Virus record (IMG/VR): IMGVR_UViG_3300027793_000022
Coordinates: 1 to 37,955 of that record
Strand: one strand, 5' to 3'
Length of the DNA stretch: 37,955 nt
Source of the DNA: a virus
The translations under genes were made by a program, and so were the position numbers. Positions 11,898-18,097 of this stretch are shown piece after piece. The notes beneath the pieces were generated by a model, which was not told the origin of the DNA, did no database searches, and was given only the letters and a program-made list of their open reading frames with translations. The first letter of the stretch is position 1; every line of letters starts with the position of its first letter.

Positions 11898-12223
11898 AAT
11901 CATTTCTCATGGCAGTTACTTTAGTATTGCTATGGTTGTTTTTATATGACTATGCAGATGGTAAAGAGCTACCAAAAGAAATGTCTATGAAAACAGATGT
12001 AGGTGAAGTCGTGCTTACTACTGAAGAATGTATCTTTATAAAGATGGGTTTAAGAAACTATCCTTATGCTGCATACGCTACTGAAAAAGGTAAAGCTAAC
12101 CATGAAGGATGTTGGCGTAAAGATGATGTGAATGGTATGTCATCTGTCTTAATTTACTTTCCTGAAATAGACTCTACAGCAGTATATAACCCACAACTAT
12201 TCTCACCACGTTCAACACTATGA
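11894..12223 (+). CDS. Secreted or membrane-anchored phage protein, function unknown
   Basis: This 109-residue protein has an N-terminal hydrophobic stretch (residues 4-18, FLMAVTLVLLWLFLY). A soluble domain follows with GEVVLTTEECIF, YAAYATEKGKANHEGCW and a C-terminal FSPRS. The two Cys residues could form a disulfide in the periplasm. I know similar 'LT.E.C ... HEGCW' proteins from podovirus lysis regions, without an assigned role. It shares overlapping ends with both neighbours. Confidence 0.65.
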   Translation: MKSFLMAVTLVLLWLFLYDYADGKELPKEMSMKTDVGEVVLTTEECIFIKMGLRNYPYAAYATEKGKANHEGCWRKDDVNGMSSVLIYFPEIDSTAVYNPQLFSPRSTL

Positions 12224-12579
12224 CATTTATTACTGAAAACAATATAGCGAACTTGTATGACACACTTATACAATTCCCTGTGTTTGATGAATATAAACTC
12301 CCACCAGCATCTAAAGTAGACTTCGTAGTAGTGCATGACGATACTATCTGTGGTCAATATGAACCACCAGAACAAGGTGAACCTCATGTTATTACTATAT
12401 CTACTGCAAAGTGTGGACATTTAGACACAGTTATCAAGACTATCTGTCACGAAATTATCCACATGATATGCTATCTTGAAGCACCTAAAACAGAGAAATA
12501 CACAAGTCACAAAGGTTTATTCTTAAAACTACAAAAGAGAGTAGCTAACACACTTGGCTACGACCCTAAAGAACTATAA
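12220..12579 (+). CDS. SprT-like zinc metalloprotease-type protein
   Basis: This 119-residue protein has a clear HEIIH zinc motif (about residues 77-81) and a third candidate ligand His at about 96 (SHKGLF). This is the arrangement of SprT-like or minimal gluzincin-type folds. The Glu in the motif would be the catalytic base. It lies between the secreted protein and the holin with ATGA coupling. The substrate is unknown; it could trim a virion or host protein, or act in lysis. Confidence 0.7.
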   Translation: MTFITENNIANLYDTLIQFPVFDEYKLPPASKVDFVVVHDDTICGQYEPPEQGEPHVITISTAKCGHLDTVIKTICHEIIHMICYLEAPKTEKYTSHKGLFLKLQKRVANTLGYDPKEL

Positions 12580-12589
12580 GGAGAATATC

Positions 12590-12955
12590 ATAGACCCTAT
12601 TACCATACTAGCAGCATTAGGACCTTTAGCAGTAGACTTAGGTAAATCACTTATTAATCGTTTTGTAGCACCTGACCAATTCAAACCAGCTACTATAGAA
12701 CAATATGCTCAGATGAAACAAATTGACTTAGAGTTCTTTAAAGTAATGAATGAAGCTGGTGGTGGTAATCCATCATATCCATGGGTAGAAGCTATTGTAA
12801 GACTCATGCGACCATTTATCGGTTTATTAGTATTAGCAACATGGGCTACAATGCACCTACAAGGTATCGCAACACCTGAAGTAGATAACTTTGCTAGTGC
12901 TGTAGGTTTCTATCTCTTTGGGGAACGTAGTTTATTCTACATTAAAAAGAAATGA
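12590..12955 (+). CDS. Holin of the 3-TM type, apparent ATA start
   Basis: This 121-residue protein (counted from 12590) matches the three-TM holin family also found in gene-transfer agents. Visible features are DPITILAALGPLAVDLGKSL (first TM region), NPSYPWVEAIVRLMRPF, LLVLATWATMHL and a C-terminal SAVGFYLFGERSLFYIKK. Family members as I know them begin M-D-P-I-T. Here that position is ATA at 12590-12592, 6 bases after a perfect AAGGAG. No ATG, GTG or TTG lies in frame near the ribosome site. A TTG at 12554 would add 12 residues but has no good ribosome site and lies inside the previous gene. Confidence 0.75.
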   Translation: MDPITILAALGPLAVDLGKSLINRFVAPDQFKPATIEQYAQMKQIDLEFFKVMNEAGGGNPSYPWVEAIVRLMRPFIGLLVLATWATMHLQGIATPEVDNFASAVGFYLFGERSLFYIKKK

Positions 12956-13110
12956 TAGTCTTAAACATACTTAACTTTATCGGTTTAGCTATACTTAAAT
13001 TATTAGTCGTATGCCTATTATTCGTAGCTATGGGTTTCTCTATTCTATTTATGTATGCTATGCAATATCTCACACAGGCTCTAACGTATATAGACAAACA
13101 TGTTAATTGA
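12952..13110 (+). CDS. Small hydrophobic membrane protein in lysis cassette
   Basis: This 52-residue product is largely hydrophobic (residues 4-37, with LNFIGLAILKLLVVCLLFVA and FSILFMYAM) and likely spans the membrane once or twice. It starts in an ATGA overlap with the holin stop and ends 11 bases inside the endolysin-candidate gene. It could be a second holin, an antiholin or a spanin-type component. Confidence 0.6.
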   Translation: MIVLNILNFIGLAILKLLVVCLLFVAMGFSILFMYAMQYLTQALTYIDKHVN

Positions 13111-13489
13111 AGTAAAAAGGTTTGAGTTTAAAGATACATATACTGTAGGCAAAATGTATATAGATAATATATACGAATGTTACACGTTAGAAGATGTGGT
13201 TAGAAAAGGAGCTAAAGTAAATGGACAAACAGCTATTCCTACTGGCACTTATAACCTCATTATTAATCATAGCAATCGTTTCAATAGGGATTTACCTTTA
13301 CTAGAAAACGTGCCTAATTTTACCGGTGTTCGTATTCATGCAGGTAACACATCAGCTCATACAGAAGGATGTATATTAGTAGGCACAACATGGTCAGGTA
13401 AAGACTTTATTGGTAATTCAAGAGTAGCGTTTAACAAACTATTTGAGAAGCTCAAGAAAGCTAAAAAAGTCACAATTAAGATATGCTAG
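13100..13489 (+). CDS. DUF5675-type putative endolysin
   Basis: This 129-residue protein has the signature of the DUF5675 family: YECYTLEDVVR, IPTGTYNLIINHSNRF, then GVRIHAGNTSAHTEGCILVG. The conserved His and the Cys in HAGN...EGCILVG resemble an L,D-transpeptidase-like active site. Phage members of this family lie with holins and are regarded as lysis enzymes. Position directly after the holin supports a peptidoglycan role. There is no signal peptide, so it would depend on the holin. Confidence 0.7.
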   Translation: MLIEVKRFEFKDTYTVGKMYIDNIYECYTLEDVVRKGAKVNGQTAIPTGTYNLIINHSNRFNRDLPLLENVPNFTGVRIHAGNTSAHTEGCILVGTTWSGKDFIGNSRVAFNKLFEKLKKAKKVTIKIC

Positions 13490-13590
13490 ATTATTTTATC
13501 TGCGACATATTGTGCGCTATTACTCACTTTAAATACGTGTTTCTAATGCTAATTTTATATATAGTATATAATAAAGTATCTCAACACTAG
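13483..13590 (+). CDS. Possible 35-residue membrane protein
   Basis: This short frame starts 7 bases inside the end of the endolysin-candidate gene and fills the gap up to the metallophosphoesterase ribosome site. Its product has a hydrophobic stretch (YVFLMLILYIVY). The tight overlap and full use of the gap support it, but there is no strong ribosome site and no family match. Confidence 0.4.
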   Translation: MLDYFICDILCAITHFKYVFLMLILYIVYNKVSQH

Positions 13591-13599
13591 GAGAGTTAC

Positions 13600-14304
13600 T
13601 TGAAATATAAATCAGTATTAGTTATTAGTGACTTACACATTCCGTATCATCATCCTGACGCATTTGCGTTTCTAAAGGCTTTAAAAGCTAAATACAAGTT
13701 TGACCACGTAGTCAACATAGGTGATGAGCTAGACCAACACGCTATATCTATGCACGAACATAACCCAGACTTATACTCTCCTGGGCATGAGTTAGAAGTA
13801 GCTAAACAACATGTAAAAGAACTAGAAAAAATATTCCCAAAGATGACTCTAGTTCACTCTAATCACAGTTCTTTAGTTTATCGTAGAGCATTAAAATATG
13901 GCTTGCCAAAGGCTTATTTAAAGCATTATAACGAGTTTTTAAACGTTGGTAAGGGTTGGGTATGGGTAGATGACCACACCATTACATTAAGTGATGGCAG
14001 CCGTTGTTTCTTTACACATGGCTTATCTGCTGACGTTCTTAAAGTAGCACAACAATATGGTATGAATACGGTGCAAGGTCACTATCATACTAAATTCAGT
14101 ATTGGTTATTACAGTAACCCTGATGCTCTTATTTGGGGTATGCAGGTGGGATGTTTAATCCACCAAAAGTCTATGGCATTTGATTATGCTAAAAACTTCA
14201 AGAGTCGTTTCATTGTAGGATGTGGAATTATTATTAACGGTCAACCAAAACTAATGCCTATGGTATTAAAACAGAATGGGCGTTGGAATGGTAATGTTTG
14301 TTAG
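13600..14304 (+). CDS. Calcineurin-like metallophosphoesterase
   Basis: This 234-residue protein has the metallophosphoesterase motifs in order: DLH (residues 11-13), GDELD (41-45), SNHSS (about 87-91), a later FTHG, and GHYH (about 160-163). These bind two metals and would hydrolyse a phosphoester. Phage members include nucleotidases and nucleases; the substrate cannot be told here. The start is TTG at 13600, with AGGAGAG 6-7 bases upstream. It lies at the far end of the late unit. Confidence 0.85.
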   Translation: MKYKSVLVISDLHIPYHHPDAFAFLKALKAKYKFDHVVNIGDELDQHAISMHEHNPDLYSPGHELEVAKQHVKELEKIFPKMTLVHSNHSSLVYRRALKYGLPKAYLKHYNEFLNVGKGWVWVDDHTITLSDGSRCFFTHGLSADVLKVAQQYGMNTVQGHYHTKFSIGYYSNPDALIWGMQVGCLIHQKSMAFDYAKNFKSRFIVGCGIIINGQPKLMPMVLKQNGRWNGNVC

Positions 14305-14311
14305 GACAATT

Positions 14312-14488
14312 ATGCAACGGTCAGAAGTAGAAATTATCTGCAATCACATGATAGGTAGAGTCATTGTGTCGTGTGAAGCATTACATGGCGATAGCACTAT
14401 AGCTCTTACATTAGATGACGATAGCATCATTGAAATTAGTGGTGAAGAACTATCTGTCTATGGCGAACTAACGCCTAGAGATGATTAG
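14312..14488 (+). CDS. Small phage protein, unknown
   Basis: This 58-residue acidic protein has a beta-type pattern (GRVIVSCEALHGDSTIALTL, then DDSIIEISGEELSVYG). The ATG at 14312 is preferred over 14276, 14288 and 14294 because TTAGGACAA lies at the right distance. It is the last rightward gene and overlaps the end of the leftward block by 4 bases. No family recognised. Confidence 0.55.
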   Translation: MQRSEVEIICNHMIGRVIVSCEALHGDSTIALTLDDDSIIEISGEELSVYGELTPRDD

Positions 14489-14640
14489 ACGCAGACCACA
14501 ATACCATTACTACCTACTTGACACACAGTCACAGAACCATCTGGTGCTAGTATAGTCGTAGTTTGAGCTAAAGCCTTCTCAGTTCCCCATATTGCTAATG
14601 CTGCTATGACTACAATAAATATCCAATATATCTTATTCAT
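14485..14640 (-). CDS. Small exported phage protein
   Basis: This 51-residue product has a signal-type N-terminus (MNKIYWIFIVVIAALAIWG, then KALAQ, a plausible signal-peptidase site). The short mature part ends TILAPDGSVTVCQVGSNGIVVCV, with two Cys. I know similar 'PDG..T.C...G..V.C' phage proteins of unknown role. A strong AAAGGAGTGAAG precedes the start at 14640; a longer frame to 14682 was not used. It is the last gene of the leftward unit. Confidence 0.6.
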   Translation of the reverse strand: MNKIYWIFIVVIAALAIWGTEKALAQTTTILAPDGSVTVCQVGSNGIVVCV

Positions 14641-14983
14641 CTTCACTCCTTTGTAATTGAACTGCTGTTTCTTTAGGAACACCCTCTACAATATACATAT
14701 CAATAGCGTTATCTGCATCAATTTTGTCTTGACGCACTCTATCAATAACTAACTGACAATATCCTTGAATATCTATCCATGAATCAAGATAGTCAGGGTT
14801 ACCATTAACAATTCTACCCATTTTTGTAGCAATCATTTCTAATGCTTCTTTTTGGTCAGCTTTTAGTGACCGGTAAGATGAGCCATTATGAAGAAGTGTT
14901 TTAAAATCTTGTGATATTTTAGACCTATTTAAAAAGTCACCATATTGCTCTTGCCTTTCATTTAATATATCATCTATCTGCAT
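14633..14983 (-). CDS. DUF6378-type phage protein
   Basis: This 116-residue protein contains YGDFLNRSKISQ, then KADQKEALEMIATKMGRIVNG and NPDYLDSWIDIQGYCQLV. This is the conserved core of the DUF6378 family, widespread in phages and of unknown function. The all-helical pattern with conserved Glu and Asp residues resembles MazG/dUTPase-like all-alpha NTP hydrolases, so a nucleotide-related role is possible but unproven. AAGGGGATGAC precedes its start. Confidence 0.75.
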   Translation of the reverse strand: MQIDDILNERQEQYGDFLNRSKISQDFKTLLHNGSSYRSLKADQKEALEMIATKMGRIVNGNPDYLDSWIDIQGYCQLVIDRVRQDKIDADNAIDMYIVEGVPKETAVQLQRSEDE

Positions 14984-14984
14984 G

Positions 14985-15101
14985 TCATCCCCTTATAAAA
15001 AATAAATCAATCACTTCATACGTACCATAAATAAAGCCAAATATACTACCAATGACTAAAGCCCAAATACACCAATCAATGACTTTTAATACCCAATCCA
15101 T
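14985..15101 (-). CDS. Small single-TM protein (38 residues)
   Basis: The product begins MDWVLKVIDWCIWALVIGSI and is one amphipathic-to-hydrophobic segment, then YGTYEVIDLFFIRG. It starts 16 bases inside the upstream gene, with GGGAG 8 bases before the ATG, and stops 1 base before the DUF6378 gene starts. Tight packing supports it as real. The role is unknown. Confidence 0.55.
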   Translation of the reverse strand: MDWVLKVIDWCIWALVIGSIFGFIYGTYEVIDLFFIRG

Positions 15102-15340
15102 TTCCCATACTCCCTTCCTACTGATACAGAAACATAGTTTCTATTCTTAAAACGTCTATCTAATATATCCATACGAGTTAGTTTAGGCAAACTAAAATAT
15201 CCTTGACTTTCTAAATACTTTAGTCTTGTTCTATTAGTTACGCATTGTTGCACAATATCTTTAATACTGCAACTAGGATGTTCTTGCATATATTTAACGA
15301 TAAACTTTGCTTGTCGTTGGTCATCTAATTTAGTGTACAT
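15086..15340 (-). CDS. Putative winged-helix DNA-binding protein
   Basis: This 84-residue protein has a helix-turn-helix-like pattern: QAKFIVKYMQEHPSCSIKDI, VQQCVTNRTRLKYLESQGYF, then beta-type KNRNYVSVSVGREYGKWIGY. Similar small proteins are common in early phage regions and may act as transcription or anti-host factors. The family is not firmly recognised. Confidence 0.55.
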   Translation of the reverse strand: MYTKLDDQRQAKFIVKYMQEHPSCSIKDIVQQCVTNRTRLKYLESQGYFSLPKLTRMDILDRRFKNRNYVSVSVGREYGKWIGY

Positions 15341-15479
15341 CTTTTATTCCATGAGTCTGTTCTAGTAATCTTGCAAATCTAAATATTCTGTCTATTGTAA
15401 CCAATTGGTCGCCTTTACCAAATGCTTCTTTATATATCTTAATAATTTCTTCTTGTGTAAGTGGTTTAGAGTCCACCAT
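15330..15479 (-). CDS. Small phage protein (49 residues)
   Basis: The product begins MVDSKPLTQEEIIKIYKEAF and continues with VTIDRIFRFARLLEQTHGI. This helix pair resembles short 'PLT.EEI......FARA.E' proteins of many phages, with no known role. It has GGAGGCAC before the ATG. Both ends overlap neighbours (11 and 14 bases), consistent with coupled translation. Confidence 0.6.
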   Translation of the reverse strand: MVDSKPLTQEEIIKIYKEAFGKGDQLVTIDRIFRFARLLEQTHGIKDVH

Positions 15480-15702
15480 GTGCCTCCGTTAATCTTTTAC
15501 TATCGTATTTTTTTGTATTAGTTACTTTGATAATGTTTTTTGTATCTGCAATAAGTGGTGTAATAACCCAGTTATGCAATTTATTCTTAATGTCTTTTTC
15601 AATCTCTAAAGATGTTGGTTTGGATGACATAAAAGCAGACCATACGAGTTTACCTGTATTATCAAATTCTTCTACAAGATAGCCTAATATTTTATCTTTC
15701 AT
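15466..15702 (-). CDS. Small phage protein, unknown
   Basis: This 78-residue protein has KDKILGYLVEEFDNTGKLVW at its N-terminus and Lys-rich mixed alpha/beta sequence after it. Its start overlaps the stop of the preceding gene by 4 bases (ATGA). No strong ribosome site is seen, so translation is likely coupled. No family recognised. Confidence 0.55.
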   Translation of the reverse strand: MKDKILGYLVEEFDNTGKLVWSAFMSSKPTSLEIEKDIKNKLHNWVITPLIADTKNIIKVTNTKKYDSKRLTEAHGGL

Positions 15703-15902
15703 TTATATAACGCTTTTCTAGCATTTTTAATACATGGAACATCATGCCATTGTGGGTCATTATTTGTAAATACTTCTATTAACCATTCTAAAGCATAAGC
15801 TAACTCTTCATTTTCTTTTACAATTTTTTTTCTAATATGAGCTTCATCCATGACATCTTTATGCACTTTAGCTAACCATAGTTTAGTATTATGTTCTTGC
15901 AT
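15699..15902 (-). CDS. Small helical phage protein, unknown
   Basis: This 67-residue, mostly helical protein (KIVKENEELAYALEWLIEVF) ends PCIKNARKALYK. It starts at the stop of the cell-wall-hydrolase gene (one-base overlap) and ends in an ATGA overlap with the next gene. The role is unknown. Confidence 0.55.
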   Translation of the reverse strand: MQEHNTKLWLAKVHKDVMDEAHIRKKIVKENEELAYALEWLIEVFTNNDPQWHDVPCIKNARKALYK

Positions 15903-16279
15903 TAGTAAAACACCATCCTTCCTATGTGAGTAATTTTTTTATGACCAAACCACGAATGTTTTGGCATAATTGAGTCATCATGAAAGTATAGCGCATTTGC
16001 CACTGGATTCGCATATTTTCCACGCATAACATCAAGAACAAATAATTCAGTTTTAAGAAACGTAACTTTGTCAACAGGTGCATGTTTTTCATCCTGTACA
16101 GCAAACTGACCAGAAGCATAAATAACATCGCATACAGACTTACCCCAGCGACCAGATTTAACACGATTATGAATAGTGTAATAAACACCCAATTTCTCCT
16201 CTAATGTTCTATTATTAACTTCATGGTAAAGTGCCGTAGCATAGCACGAAACTTCTAGTTCTAAGTTATGTATATCCAT
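15902..16279 (-). CDS. SleB-like cell-wall hydrolase (Hydrolase_2 type)
   Basis: This 125-residue protein carries the SleB/Hydrolase_2 core: ALYHEVNNR (residues 16-24, with the conserved Glu20), GVYYTIHNRVKSGRWG (31-46), CDVIYASGQF (50-59) and later ANALYFHDDS. SleB-type enzymes cleave peptidoglycan glycan strands. No signal peptide is visible. Its placement in the leftward block, away from the holin, is unusual. GAAAGG precedes its ATG. Its start region diverges from the pqqA-like gene. It could act in lysis, or in local wall opening during infection. Confidence 0.8.
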   Translation of the reverse strand: MDIHNLELEVSCYATALYHEVNNRTLEEKLGVYYTIHNRVKSGRWGKSVCDVIYASGQFAVQDEKHAPVDKVTFLKTELFVLDVMRGKYANPVANALYFHDDSIMPKHSWFGHKKITHIGRMVFY

Positions 16280-16300
16280 TACAGACCTTTCATGGTTTTC

Positions 16301-16332
16301 TTGTGTCTAGTAATCCCATACAGGCGTATAAT
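16301..16332 (+). promoter_or_regulatory. Candidate promoter of the pqqA-like gene
   Basis: A perfect TATAAT lies at 16327-16332, 34 bases before the pqqA-like ATG. The -35 region is poor: TTGTGT at 16301-16306 with a 20-base spacer is the best match. A second TATAAA lies at 16338-16343. A weak -35 could mean activator dependence. Confidence 0.4.
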
Positions 16333-16365
16333 TCTACTATAAATCTAAAAGAAAGGAGAAACGCC

Positions 16366-16437
16366 ATGTGGACAACACCATCAGCAACTGAAATGCGCTT
16401 TGGATTTGAAGTTACTATGTACGTAATGAACAAGTAA
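16366..16437 (+). CDS. pqqA: PqqA-like PQQ precursor peptide (23 residues)
   Basis: This 23-codon gene encodes a peptide starting MWTTPSATEMR and ending FGFEVTMYVMNK. It aligns without gaps to the 23-residue PqqA of Klebsiella (MWKKPAFIDLR..., ...GLEVTLYISNR). It keeps MW, P5, R11, G13 and the E15-V-T-x-Y19 core. In PQQ synthesis PqqE, with the chaperone PqqD, links Glu15 to Tyr19 of PqqA; proteolysis, PqqB and PqqC then complete the cofactor. AGGAG at 16354-16358 stands 7 bases before the ATG, and a rho-independent terminator follows 6 bases after the stop. It is a stand-alone plus-strand cassette within minus-strand genes. No pqqB-F genes are present, so the host must supply them. The likely role is to raise the supply of a precursor consumed one per PQQ. 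Confidence 0.9.
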   Translation: MWTTPSATEMRFGFEVTMYVMNK

Positions 16438-16443
16438 ATAAAT

Positions 16444-16468
16444 AGGGGAGGTCAAACTCCCCTTTTTA
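16444..16468 (+). terminator. Rho-independent terminator after the pqqA-like gene
   Basis: GGGGAG (16445-16450) pairs with CTCCCC (16457-16462) around a 6-base loop, extended by one A-T pair and followed by TTTTT. It ends next to the stop codon of the leftward SSB-like gene at 16469. Read leftward, the hairpin is followed by TATTTATTT, so it may also work weakly on the early transcript. Confidence 0.85.
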
Positions 16469-16717
16469 CTAGAAGGGTAAATCACTTTCGTCATCCCCTT
16501 CAACTGCTGGTTTACTTCTTGTTTCACCCTGAACTTCTTTTAGCTGCAATTGACCTGAAATAAATTTACCGTTCTTACCGTCTCTAATCCAACCACTCAT
16601 TCTAAATTCAATGCCATCAAGATTTGCTGTGCCGGCATAGTTTGGTCGTTTAGGATTGTCCCCCTGGTCGTTCTTAAATAATACAAAAGTATTTGTATTG
16701 TCATATTGTTGCGCCAT
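16469..16717 (-). CDS. SSB-like protein (DUF736-related fold, acidic tail)
   Basis: This 82-residue protein has NTFVLFKNDQGDNPKRPNYAG, then GIEFRMSGWIRDGKNGKFIS, similar to DUF736-type small beta proteins. It ends in DDESDLPF, the acidic, Phe-terminated tail by which SSB proteins recruit partners. It lies downstream of the exonuclease and annealing protein, which supports a single-stranded DNA-binding role in recombination. AAAGGAGTAGTAT precedes its start. Confidence 0.7.
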   Translation of the reverse strand: MAQQYDNTNTFVLFKNDQGDNPKRPNYAGTANLDGIEFRMSGWIRDGKNGKFISGQLQLKEVQGETRSKPAVEGDDESDLPF

Positions 16718-16730
16718 ATACTACTCCTTT
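16714..16730. repeat. 17-bp junction repeat, copy A
   Basis: On the minus strand this reads AAAGGAGTAGTATATGG. It contains the ribosome site, the TAG stop of the 61-residue gene and the ATG of the SSB-like gene. The identical 17 bases occur at 16903-16919. Confidence 0.8.
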
Positions 16731-16906
16731 GTTGTAATTCTATGTGGGAAAAAAATATCGTCTATTGTTTCTTGTAAATCTGATTGAAATTCACAAATAG
16801 TAAGTACATCAGCTATAACATCATGCACAATAAATCTATCCTGAATTTCTGTTATAGTTACAACATTTCTCCTGTTTTTACTTGTTAATAAATTAGGGTC
16901 TTCCAT
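16721..16906 (-). CDS. Small phage protein between exonuclease and SSB genes
   Basis: This 61-residue protein begins MEDPNLLTSKNRRNVVTITE and has a helical, acidic C-terminal half (FQSDLQETIDDIFF). No family recognised. It is bounded on each side by the same 17-base stop/ribosome-site/start sequence, so it looks like a cassette inserted or duplicated between recombination genes. Confidence 0.55.
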   Translation of the reverse strand: MEDPNLLTSKNRRNVVTITEIQDRFIVHDVIADVLTICEFQSDLQETIDDIFFPHRITTKE

Positions 16907-16919
16907 ATACTACTCCTTT
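16903..16919. repeat. 17-bp junction repeat, copy B
   Basis: This is identical to 16714-16730. It contains the TAG stop of the exonuclease gene, the ribosome site and the ATG of the 61-residue gene on the minus strand. Recombination between the two copies would cleanly remove that gene. Confidence 0.8.
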
Positions 16920-17533
16920 AGTTTAATAATTGTTTGTTCTACTTCGTCTAGGAACTTAATTACTTCTGCTTCTAGTTCTGCAATATAGTCATTATCCCTA
17001 TCTACCCTTGCTACAAAGAGTTGCAATTCTACAGGAAAATTAGGATTGTAGCTAACAAAGTCTACCCACTTAGCACCTGTGCAAGCTAATTGCCATTGCA
17101 TCTGTGGTATGTATTTACTAGGCACAGACTTACTCATAAGCGTATTAGTATGGGTTGTTTCTATAGGACATTTAATCTCTATAAGACCTGCATACTTACC
17201 TTCTTCTGCTGCGTTTACAGCTCCGTCAGGACTAGCACCACTATTCTTAATAACAGGATGGTCAAAGAAACCTACCTCTGTTACAGATACCCCTTTAGTT
17301 TGCATATAAAGCTCTCTAGCAGCACTTTCTCTTTCAATACCATCTAACATAGCCTGATTAACAAAACTATCGCCTTTCTTACCTGTAAGACGTTCTGATA
17401 CTAATTGGACAAGATAGTTTTGACGTGATGTAGATACGCCTGTTTTGGTCTTGGCTATGACATCCGATATTCTGGATGCCGTAACCTTACCTAGACGTTG
17501 TTCAAACCACTCCTCTGTGCGTTGCTCTATCAT
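16910..17533 (-). CDS. YqaJ-type recombination exonuclease
   Basis: This 207-residue protein starts MIEQRTEEWFEQRLGKVTAS, the classic YqaJ/lambda-Exo N-terminus. It has the PD-(D/E)XK active site SPDG (about residues 99-103) and EIKCP (about 118-122), then QMQWQLACTGA. It would resect double-stranded DNA 5' to 3' to give tails for the annealing protein encoded just upstream. The start overlaps that gene's stop (ATGA). It acts in phage recombination and replication. Confidence 0.9.
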   Translation of the reverse strand: MIEQRTEEWFEQRLGKVTASRISDVIAKTKTGVSTSRQNYLVQLVSERLTGKKGDSFVNQAMLDGIERESAARELYMQTKGVSVTEVGFFDHPVIKNSGASPDGAVNAAEEGKYAGLIEIKCPIETTHTNTLMSKSVPSKYIPQMQWQLACTGAKWVDFVSYNPNFPVELQLFVARVDRDNDYIAELEAEVIKFLDEVEQTIIKLKE

Positions 17534-17931
17534 AGGAAGTCCTTGCTAGATACTGCTTTTAGAGCTGGTTGTTCTGACTCTGGAATATCCTCACCGCTAT
17601 AGATGTAAAGACCAATACCATGTAATGCAATAGCCTTAGCTAAACAACGTTGCATAGCTGTATTAACTGCCATAGCGTCAGGGTTAGGGATAGCTTGGTT
17701 TCTAAAGTTAAGCACAGGTAACTGAGCTGTCATAGACTTGCCAAACGCATGGACTGTGCAGAATACCATAAGCGTTTCACCAAACTGTTTAGGTTCGCCA
17801 TAAGTCCATGTAGCAGTTGGGTCTTGCTGTAGAAGAGTATCCACAGCCCAAGCCCATGATAAGTATGATAGACCATTCTTTTTCTCAATGTGGTCTGATA
17901 CATTAATCTTACGTAGTTCGTTATAGTTCAT
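17530..17931 (-). CDS. Single-strand annealing protein (DUF1071/SSAP-type)
   Basis: This 133-residue protein has KINVSDHIEKKNGLSYLSWA, then MAVNTAMQRCLAKAIALHG and GLYIYSGEDIPESE. These are hallmarks of DUF1071-type annealing proteins (Sak/ERF-related). It would pair complementary single strands made by the adjacent YqaJ exonuclease. I chose the ATG at 17931, which has GGAGAG 5 bases upstream and an 11-base overlap with the preceding gene. An ATG at 18000 with GGGAGAG is also possible and would add a Gln-rich 23-residue extension. Confidence 0.85.
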   Translation of the reverse strand: MNYNELRKINVSDHIEKKNGLSYLSWAWAVDTLLQQDPTATWTYGEPKQFGETLMVFCTVHAFGKSMTAQLPVLNFRNQAIPNPDAMAVNTAMQRCLAKAIALHGIGLYIYSGEDIPESEQPALKAVSSKDFL

Positions 17932-18097
17932 CTTTCTCTCCTGTTGTTCTTGTTGGTGTTGTTCCATCATTACCTGGTCGTAAAACTGTTGCTGACTCAT
18001 TTACTCTCTCCCTTTCATCAAATCGTTTATTAAATTCTTCTAAGTCTTTCCATACTTCTGGCAATATTTCAGCGATACGCTTTAAACCATTCGCCAT
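17921..18097 (-). CDS. Small phage protein, unknown
   Basis: This 58-residue protein begins MANGLKRIAEILPEVWKDLE, a helical segment, followed by a charged, Thr-rich tail. GGGGGT upstream of 18097 supports this start over 18139. It overlaps the annealing-protein gene by 11 bases. The role is unknown. Confidence 0.55.
   Translation of the reverse strand: MANGLKRIAEILPEVWKDLEEFNKRFDERERVNESATVLRPGNDGTTPTRTTGEKDEL

Follow-up and report, generated by a model that had tools for sequence, protein, structure and literature searches.

Introduction

Phages can provide the fastest-used part of a host energy system, as do the cyanophages that carry psbA, the gene for the D1 protein, a fast-turning-over photosystem subunit. 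In this paper we describe pqqA, a gene that may hold a similar place in its host's economy, in a viral DNA of 37,955 nucleotides (IMG/VR virus record IMGVR_UViG_3300027793_000022, positions 1 to 37,955), the whole of which is referred to here as the window. PqqA is the precursor peptide of the cofactor pyrroloquinoline quinone (PQQ); its residues E15 and Y19 become PQQ, and one peptide is consumed for each PQQ made. The two cases differ in that the psbA product is a subunit of the photosystem, whereas PqqA is a substrate, a peptide destroyed in the making of the cofactor.

The closest described system is the Lake Baikal phage population VP_266, in which PqqA occurs with a methanol dehydrogenase and for which enhanced methanol oxidation was proposed (PMC7678222). 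A 2026 sediment study counted viral pqqA among phosphorus genes (PMC13188868), and phage PqqA is not mentioned in the papers on the methylophages MEP401 and MEP402 (PMC10580990) and Melnitz (PMC9004378). Viral PqqA is thus already published, together with its interpretation as an auxiliary gene that aids methanol oxidation. VP_266, however, is a single T4-like contig population with methanol dehydrogenase, whereas the genes described here stand alone, in small phages that belong to several lineages and include cultured isolates where they had been overlooked. What is new is the breadth of occurrence, the stand-alone form in methylophages and the evidence of selection.

The probable hosts matter to the carbon cycle: the Methylophilaceae (OM43, Methylopumilus) are abundant methanol oxidisers of fresh and coastal waters. 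A gene that is shared and selected in otherwise unrelated phages points to a bottleneck in infected methylotroph cells, and pqqA can serve as a short sequence marker by which uncultured phages are assigned to methylotroph hosts.

Results and Discussion

Identity of the peptide

The gene is a short open reading frame with its ATG at 16366 and TAA at 16435-16437, encoding 23 amino acids.

16366..16437, + strand: pqqA, PQQ precursor peptide MWTTPSATEMRFGFEVTMYVMNK (translation; scores above the PF08042 and TIGR02107 cut-offs; purifying selection specific to this frame among syntenic relatives)

Judged by its sequence, the window peptide is PqqA and the gene is real, as the initial annotation had proposed from the letters alone. 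It scored 41.3 bits against PF08042 (PqqA; cut-off 21.1), or 39.1 bits in a scan of the genome, and 38.5 bits against the NCBIfam PqqA equivalog TIGR02107 (cut-off 20). PqqA has been defined by a Glu-X-X-X-Tyr motif within a short peptide of 23-39 amino acids (PMC2294125), and the window peptide has E15-VTM-Y19 within its 23; the motif pattern occurs once in the window and in none of 100 dinucleotide shuffles. It shares with bacterial PqqA of the Methylophilaceae type the length of 23 and the residues MW...P5...R11-G13-E15-V-T-M-Y19, and is identical to the PqqA of two bacterial metagenome-assembled genomes or host loci (L167 and L175). The window copy differs from bacterial PqqA in being phage-encoded and alone, without pqqE. 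That the window is a true phage genome and not a host contig is evident from its SU10-type capsid and portal proteins and its Terminase_3 terminase.

Occurrence in named phages

Three different PqqA peptides, with identities down to 58%, were used as tblastn queries against 50,697 phage records, and each recovered the same 12. Nine are methylophage records (P19250A, Venkman, MEP301, MEP401, MEP402 and four of Melnitz), which are all the sequenced phages of methylotrophs that could be located, and one, Manatee Spring phage MW202481, has no assigned host, a distribution that agrees with the methylotroph host first suggested for the window phage. The remaining two records, both named 'Acinetobacter phage MD-2021a' (CAKLQF020000010.1 and CAKLQH020000055.1), were dropped as viral; they carry a bacterial-type pqqA and are apparently mislabelled bacterial contigs, the one inspected being chromosome-like, with pqqABCD, a radical-SAM gene and polyphosphate kinase.

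The initial annotation had also supposed that gene callers pass over so short a gene. None of six phage records inspected annotates PqqA, the gene being either unannotated or replaced by an annotated antisense reading frame, and no PqqA-type family was found in PHROGs. A carbon-cycle gene can escape notice in this way when it is shorter than the limits of gene callers and viral families.

When a 4-kb stretch of MEP402 was compared by blastn with P19250A, MEP301, Venkman and Melnitz, the matches extended over only ~60-95 bp and lay at pqqA. Unrelated methylophages therefore share this gene and little else in that region, and the surroundings of pqqA differ among phages. Of 57 phage records tested for pqqE (50 viral contigs with pqqA, six phage records and the window), none gave a score over cut-off, and pqqE was present in 11 of 12 host genomes tested. 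A solitary pqqA in variable surroundings, in phages in which pqqE was not found, would fit with the peptide being a precursor for something besides PQQ, such as another modified product or an infection signal. We regard this as very improbable, given the full match to the PqqA equivalog, the identity with host peptides and the restriction to phages of methylotrophs among the records searched.

Maintenance and selection

The ssb-like gene next to pqqA was used as an independent bait, and 55 related loci were fetched without regard to the presence of pqqA. An intact pqqA lay at the same place in 52 of them; of the three others, one is on a contig that ends about where pqqA would be expected, and in the remaining two the ssb match is distant or partial. 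The proportions of synonymous and nonsynonymous differences (pS and pN) in the pqqA frame, computed over 30 distinct syntenic sequences, were 0.45 and 0.05, a pN/pS of 0.11. The other two sense frames gave 4-10, and column-shuffled controls averaged 1.09 (minimum 0.40); the ratio was low elsewhere only in the one antisense frame whose third positions coincide with those of pqqA (0.21, as expected). The gene is maintained in phages by strong purifying selection on its frame. E15 and Y19 are invariant in the ssb-baited set, on which alone invariance was judged because the search pattern behind a larger set of 120 environmental contigs (below) forces it. Relatives with the frame broken at either residue, which the initial annotation had named as an observation that would count against it, were thus looked for among the ssb-linked loci, and there were none.

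A close relative of the window, L026, retains a nearly unchanged -10 box, ribosome site and terminator around a different PqqA core (EIRLGMEITAYVFNR); L045, L083 and L102 have alleles like it. A search of 120 Methylophilaceae genomes and 369 genomes of the class turned up no host from which the divergent EIRLGMEITAY allele could have come.

These observations bear on whether pqqA is a passive passenger (moron), or a recombination or attachment site copied from a multi-copy host gene. The many pqqA copies in hosts would offer ready material for such copying, and the exchange of the peptide core in L026 between retained flanking signals could be read in the same way. Against this, selection is strong and specific to the frame, synonymous sites have diverged (pS ~0.45) so that DNA identity is not what is conserved, and the closest host DNA is only 94% identical. 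There is consequently very little probability left for this explanation. The passive moron named as an alternative in the initial annotation is unlikely on account of the pN/pS of 0.11 and the restriction to methylophages; the other alternative offered there, a decoy, is disfavoured on grounds given in the next section.

Proposed role in methanol oxidation

We consider it likely that phage pqqA serves as an auxiliary metabolic gene by supplying the one component that PQQ synthesis consumes. During infection of a Methylophilaceae cell, the PqqA peptide would be made from the phage gene, host PqqD and PqqE would form its E15-Y19 cross-link, and the remaining steps to PQQ would fall to PqqB, PqqC and proteases of the host. 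While host transcripts decrease, the cofactor would continue to reach the methanol dehydrogenases (XoxF/MxaF), on which the host mainly relies for carbon and electrons. The phage would in this way bring only the consumed part, at one peptide per cofactor, and leave the catalytic parts to the host. Because each PQQ uses up one peptide, peptide dosage is a plausible bottleneck during the decay of host mRNA. Published work reports 3-12 copies of pqqA per genome and a single pqqBCDE (PMC4109929), and a level of PqqA ~20-fold above that of PqqC and PqqE (PMC2294125), which together indicate that peptide dosage matters. In our own survey pqqA was found in all 120 Methylophilaceae genomes, with two or more copies in 113 and up to 12, and bacterial genomes returned with the same type of motif were mostly Methylophilaceae and Methylophaga. 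From these considerations we infer an effect on methanol oxidation and burst.

The same host enzymes would be bound if phage PqqA instead acted as a decoy or brake, occupying PqqD and PqqE and so diverting or stalling host PQQ synthesis; a one-gene cassette would be enough for this purpose, and hosts already hold several copies of the gene. E15 and Y19, however, are required for conversion and not obviously for binding, and both are invariant in the ssb-linked set. The phage peptide moreover equals host peptides, so that a normal substrate is to be expected, and the methanol dehydrogenase on one pqqA contig points towards boosting. A decoy is on balance improbable, if slightly less so than the two explanations considered above. 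The methanol dehydrogenase, on contig L397 (below), fits a boosting of methanol oxidation and agrees with the Baikal finding of PqqA alongside such an enzyme (PMC7678222).

Several observations weigh against the supply of PQQ precursor as the role of the gene. The gain from one more pqqA is not self-evident in hosts that already hold several, and most of the 120 environmental contigs listed are fragments. From pqqA type and relatives only, we infer that the window phage has a Methylophilaceae-type methylotroph as host. Two near-complete phages (L265/G012 and L266/G013), with capsid proteins 83-84% identical to that of the window, have neither pqqA nor the ssb module, so phages of this structural lineage can do without the gene. 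Its absence from these two neither supports nor refutes the host link; they possibly infect hosts that do not depend on PQQ.

A broader proposal is that PqqA supply is a near-universal strategy of phages on obligate methylotrophs, in which unrelated lineages have converged on a 23-residue substrate gene, methanol oxidation is limited by PQQ precursor, not by PQQ enzymes, after host transcription has failed, and the core is exchangeable within a conserved cassette, as in L026. Here we find the arguments evenly balanced. Existing phage-host pairs are suited to a clean test, namely Venkman and Melnitz on H5P1, and MEP401 and MEP402 on FZCC0133.

Expression signals and gene neighbourhood

The features that surround pqqA in the window are as follows.

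15902..16279, - strand: cell wall hydrolase (Hydrolase_2), divergent neighbour (PF07486, 60.7 bits)
16324..16365, + strand: presumed -10 box TATAAT (~16324-16329) and Shine-Dalgarno sequence AAAGGAGA directly 5' of the ATG (from sequence)
16444..16463, + strand: intrinsic-terminator-like hairpin directly 3' of pqqA, a GC stem followed by T's (detected on both strands; 0.2 expected)
16469..16717, - strand: ssb-like gene, convergent neighbour (no Pfam hit; the counterpart in the related phage MW202481 is called putative SSB)
16910..18000, - strand: YqaJ recombinase and Sak annealing protein (PF09588, PF06378), of a leftward recombination module

Within this leftward module pqqA is alone on the + strand, opposite its neighbours, and it is probably transcribed as its own small unit from that strand. 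A strong ribosome site and a terminator of its own had been noted from the start, and both were recovered, the first as a Shine-Dalgarno match of 6 nt immediately 5' of the gene and the second as the terminator-like hairpin. The promoter is less certain than either of these: a promoter scan found no consensus sigma-70 promoter at the window pqqA, and the TATAAT box is retained in many, not all, of 42 aligned syntenic upstream regions. An integration or attachment site was considered for the locus and rejected, since neither the window nor any of six related phage records encodes an integrase.

Environmental viral contigs

A scan of IMG/VR with a loose 34-bit PqqA motif returned at least 120 contigs. 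All 120 matches listed are complete pqqA genes of 23-25 amino acids with a stop codon; among them are 112 different DNA sequences and 61 different peptides. The Shine-Dalgarno match spans 4 nt or more in each of the 120 listed genes and reaches 5 nt or more in 111, as it does at 6% of control ATGs. In 41 of 118 listed viral genes a strict stem and T-run lay no more than 90 nt from the stop codon of pqqA, compared with 17 of 1200 control stretches.

Viral pqqA genes of an RLGFE(V/I)TMYF type were seen in L012, L020, L022, L029, L036, L048, L056 and L064, several of them in tight operons with gaps of ~10 bp, and probably come from phages of a different host group. The pqqA contig L397 (IMGVR_UViG_3300025120_009955, 72 kb) encodes at 11990-16784 a PQQ-dependent methanol dehydrogenase of 624 amino acids, followed directly by a formate dehydrogenase alpha subunit of 946 amino acids. 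These two genes lie near curli-like genes, and the same contig carries dnaK, groEL and ribonucleotide reductase.
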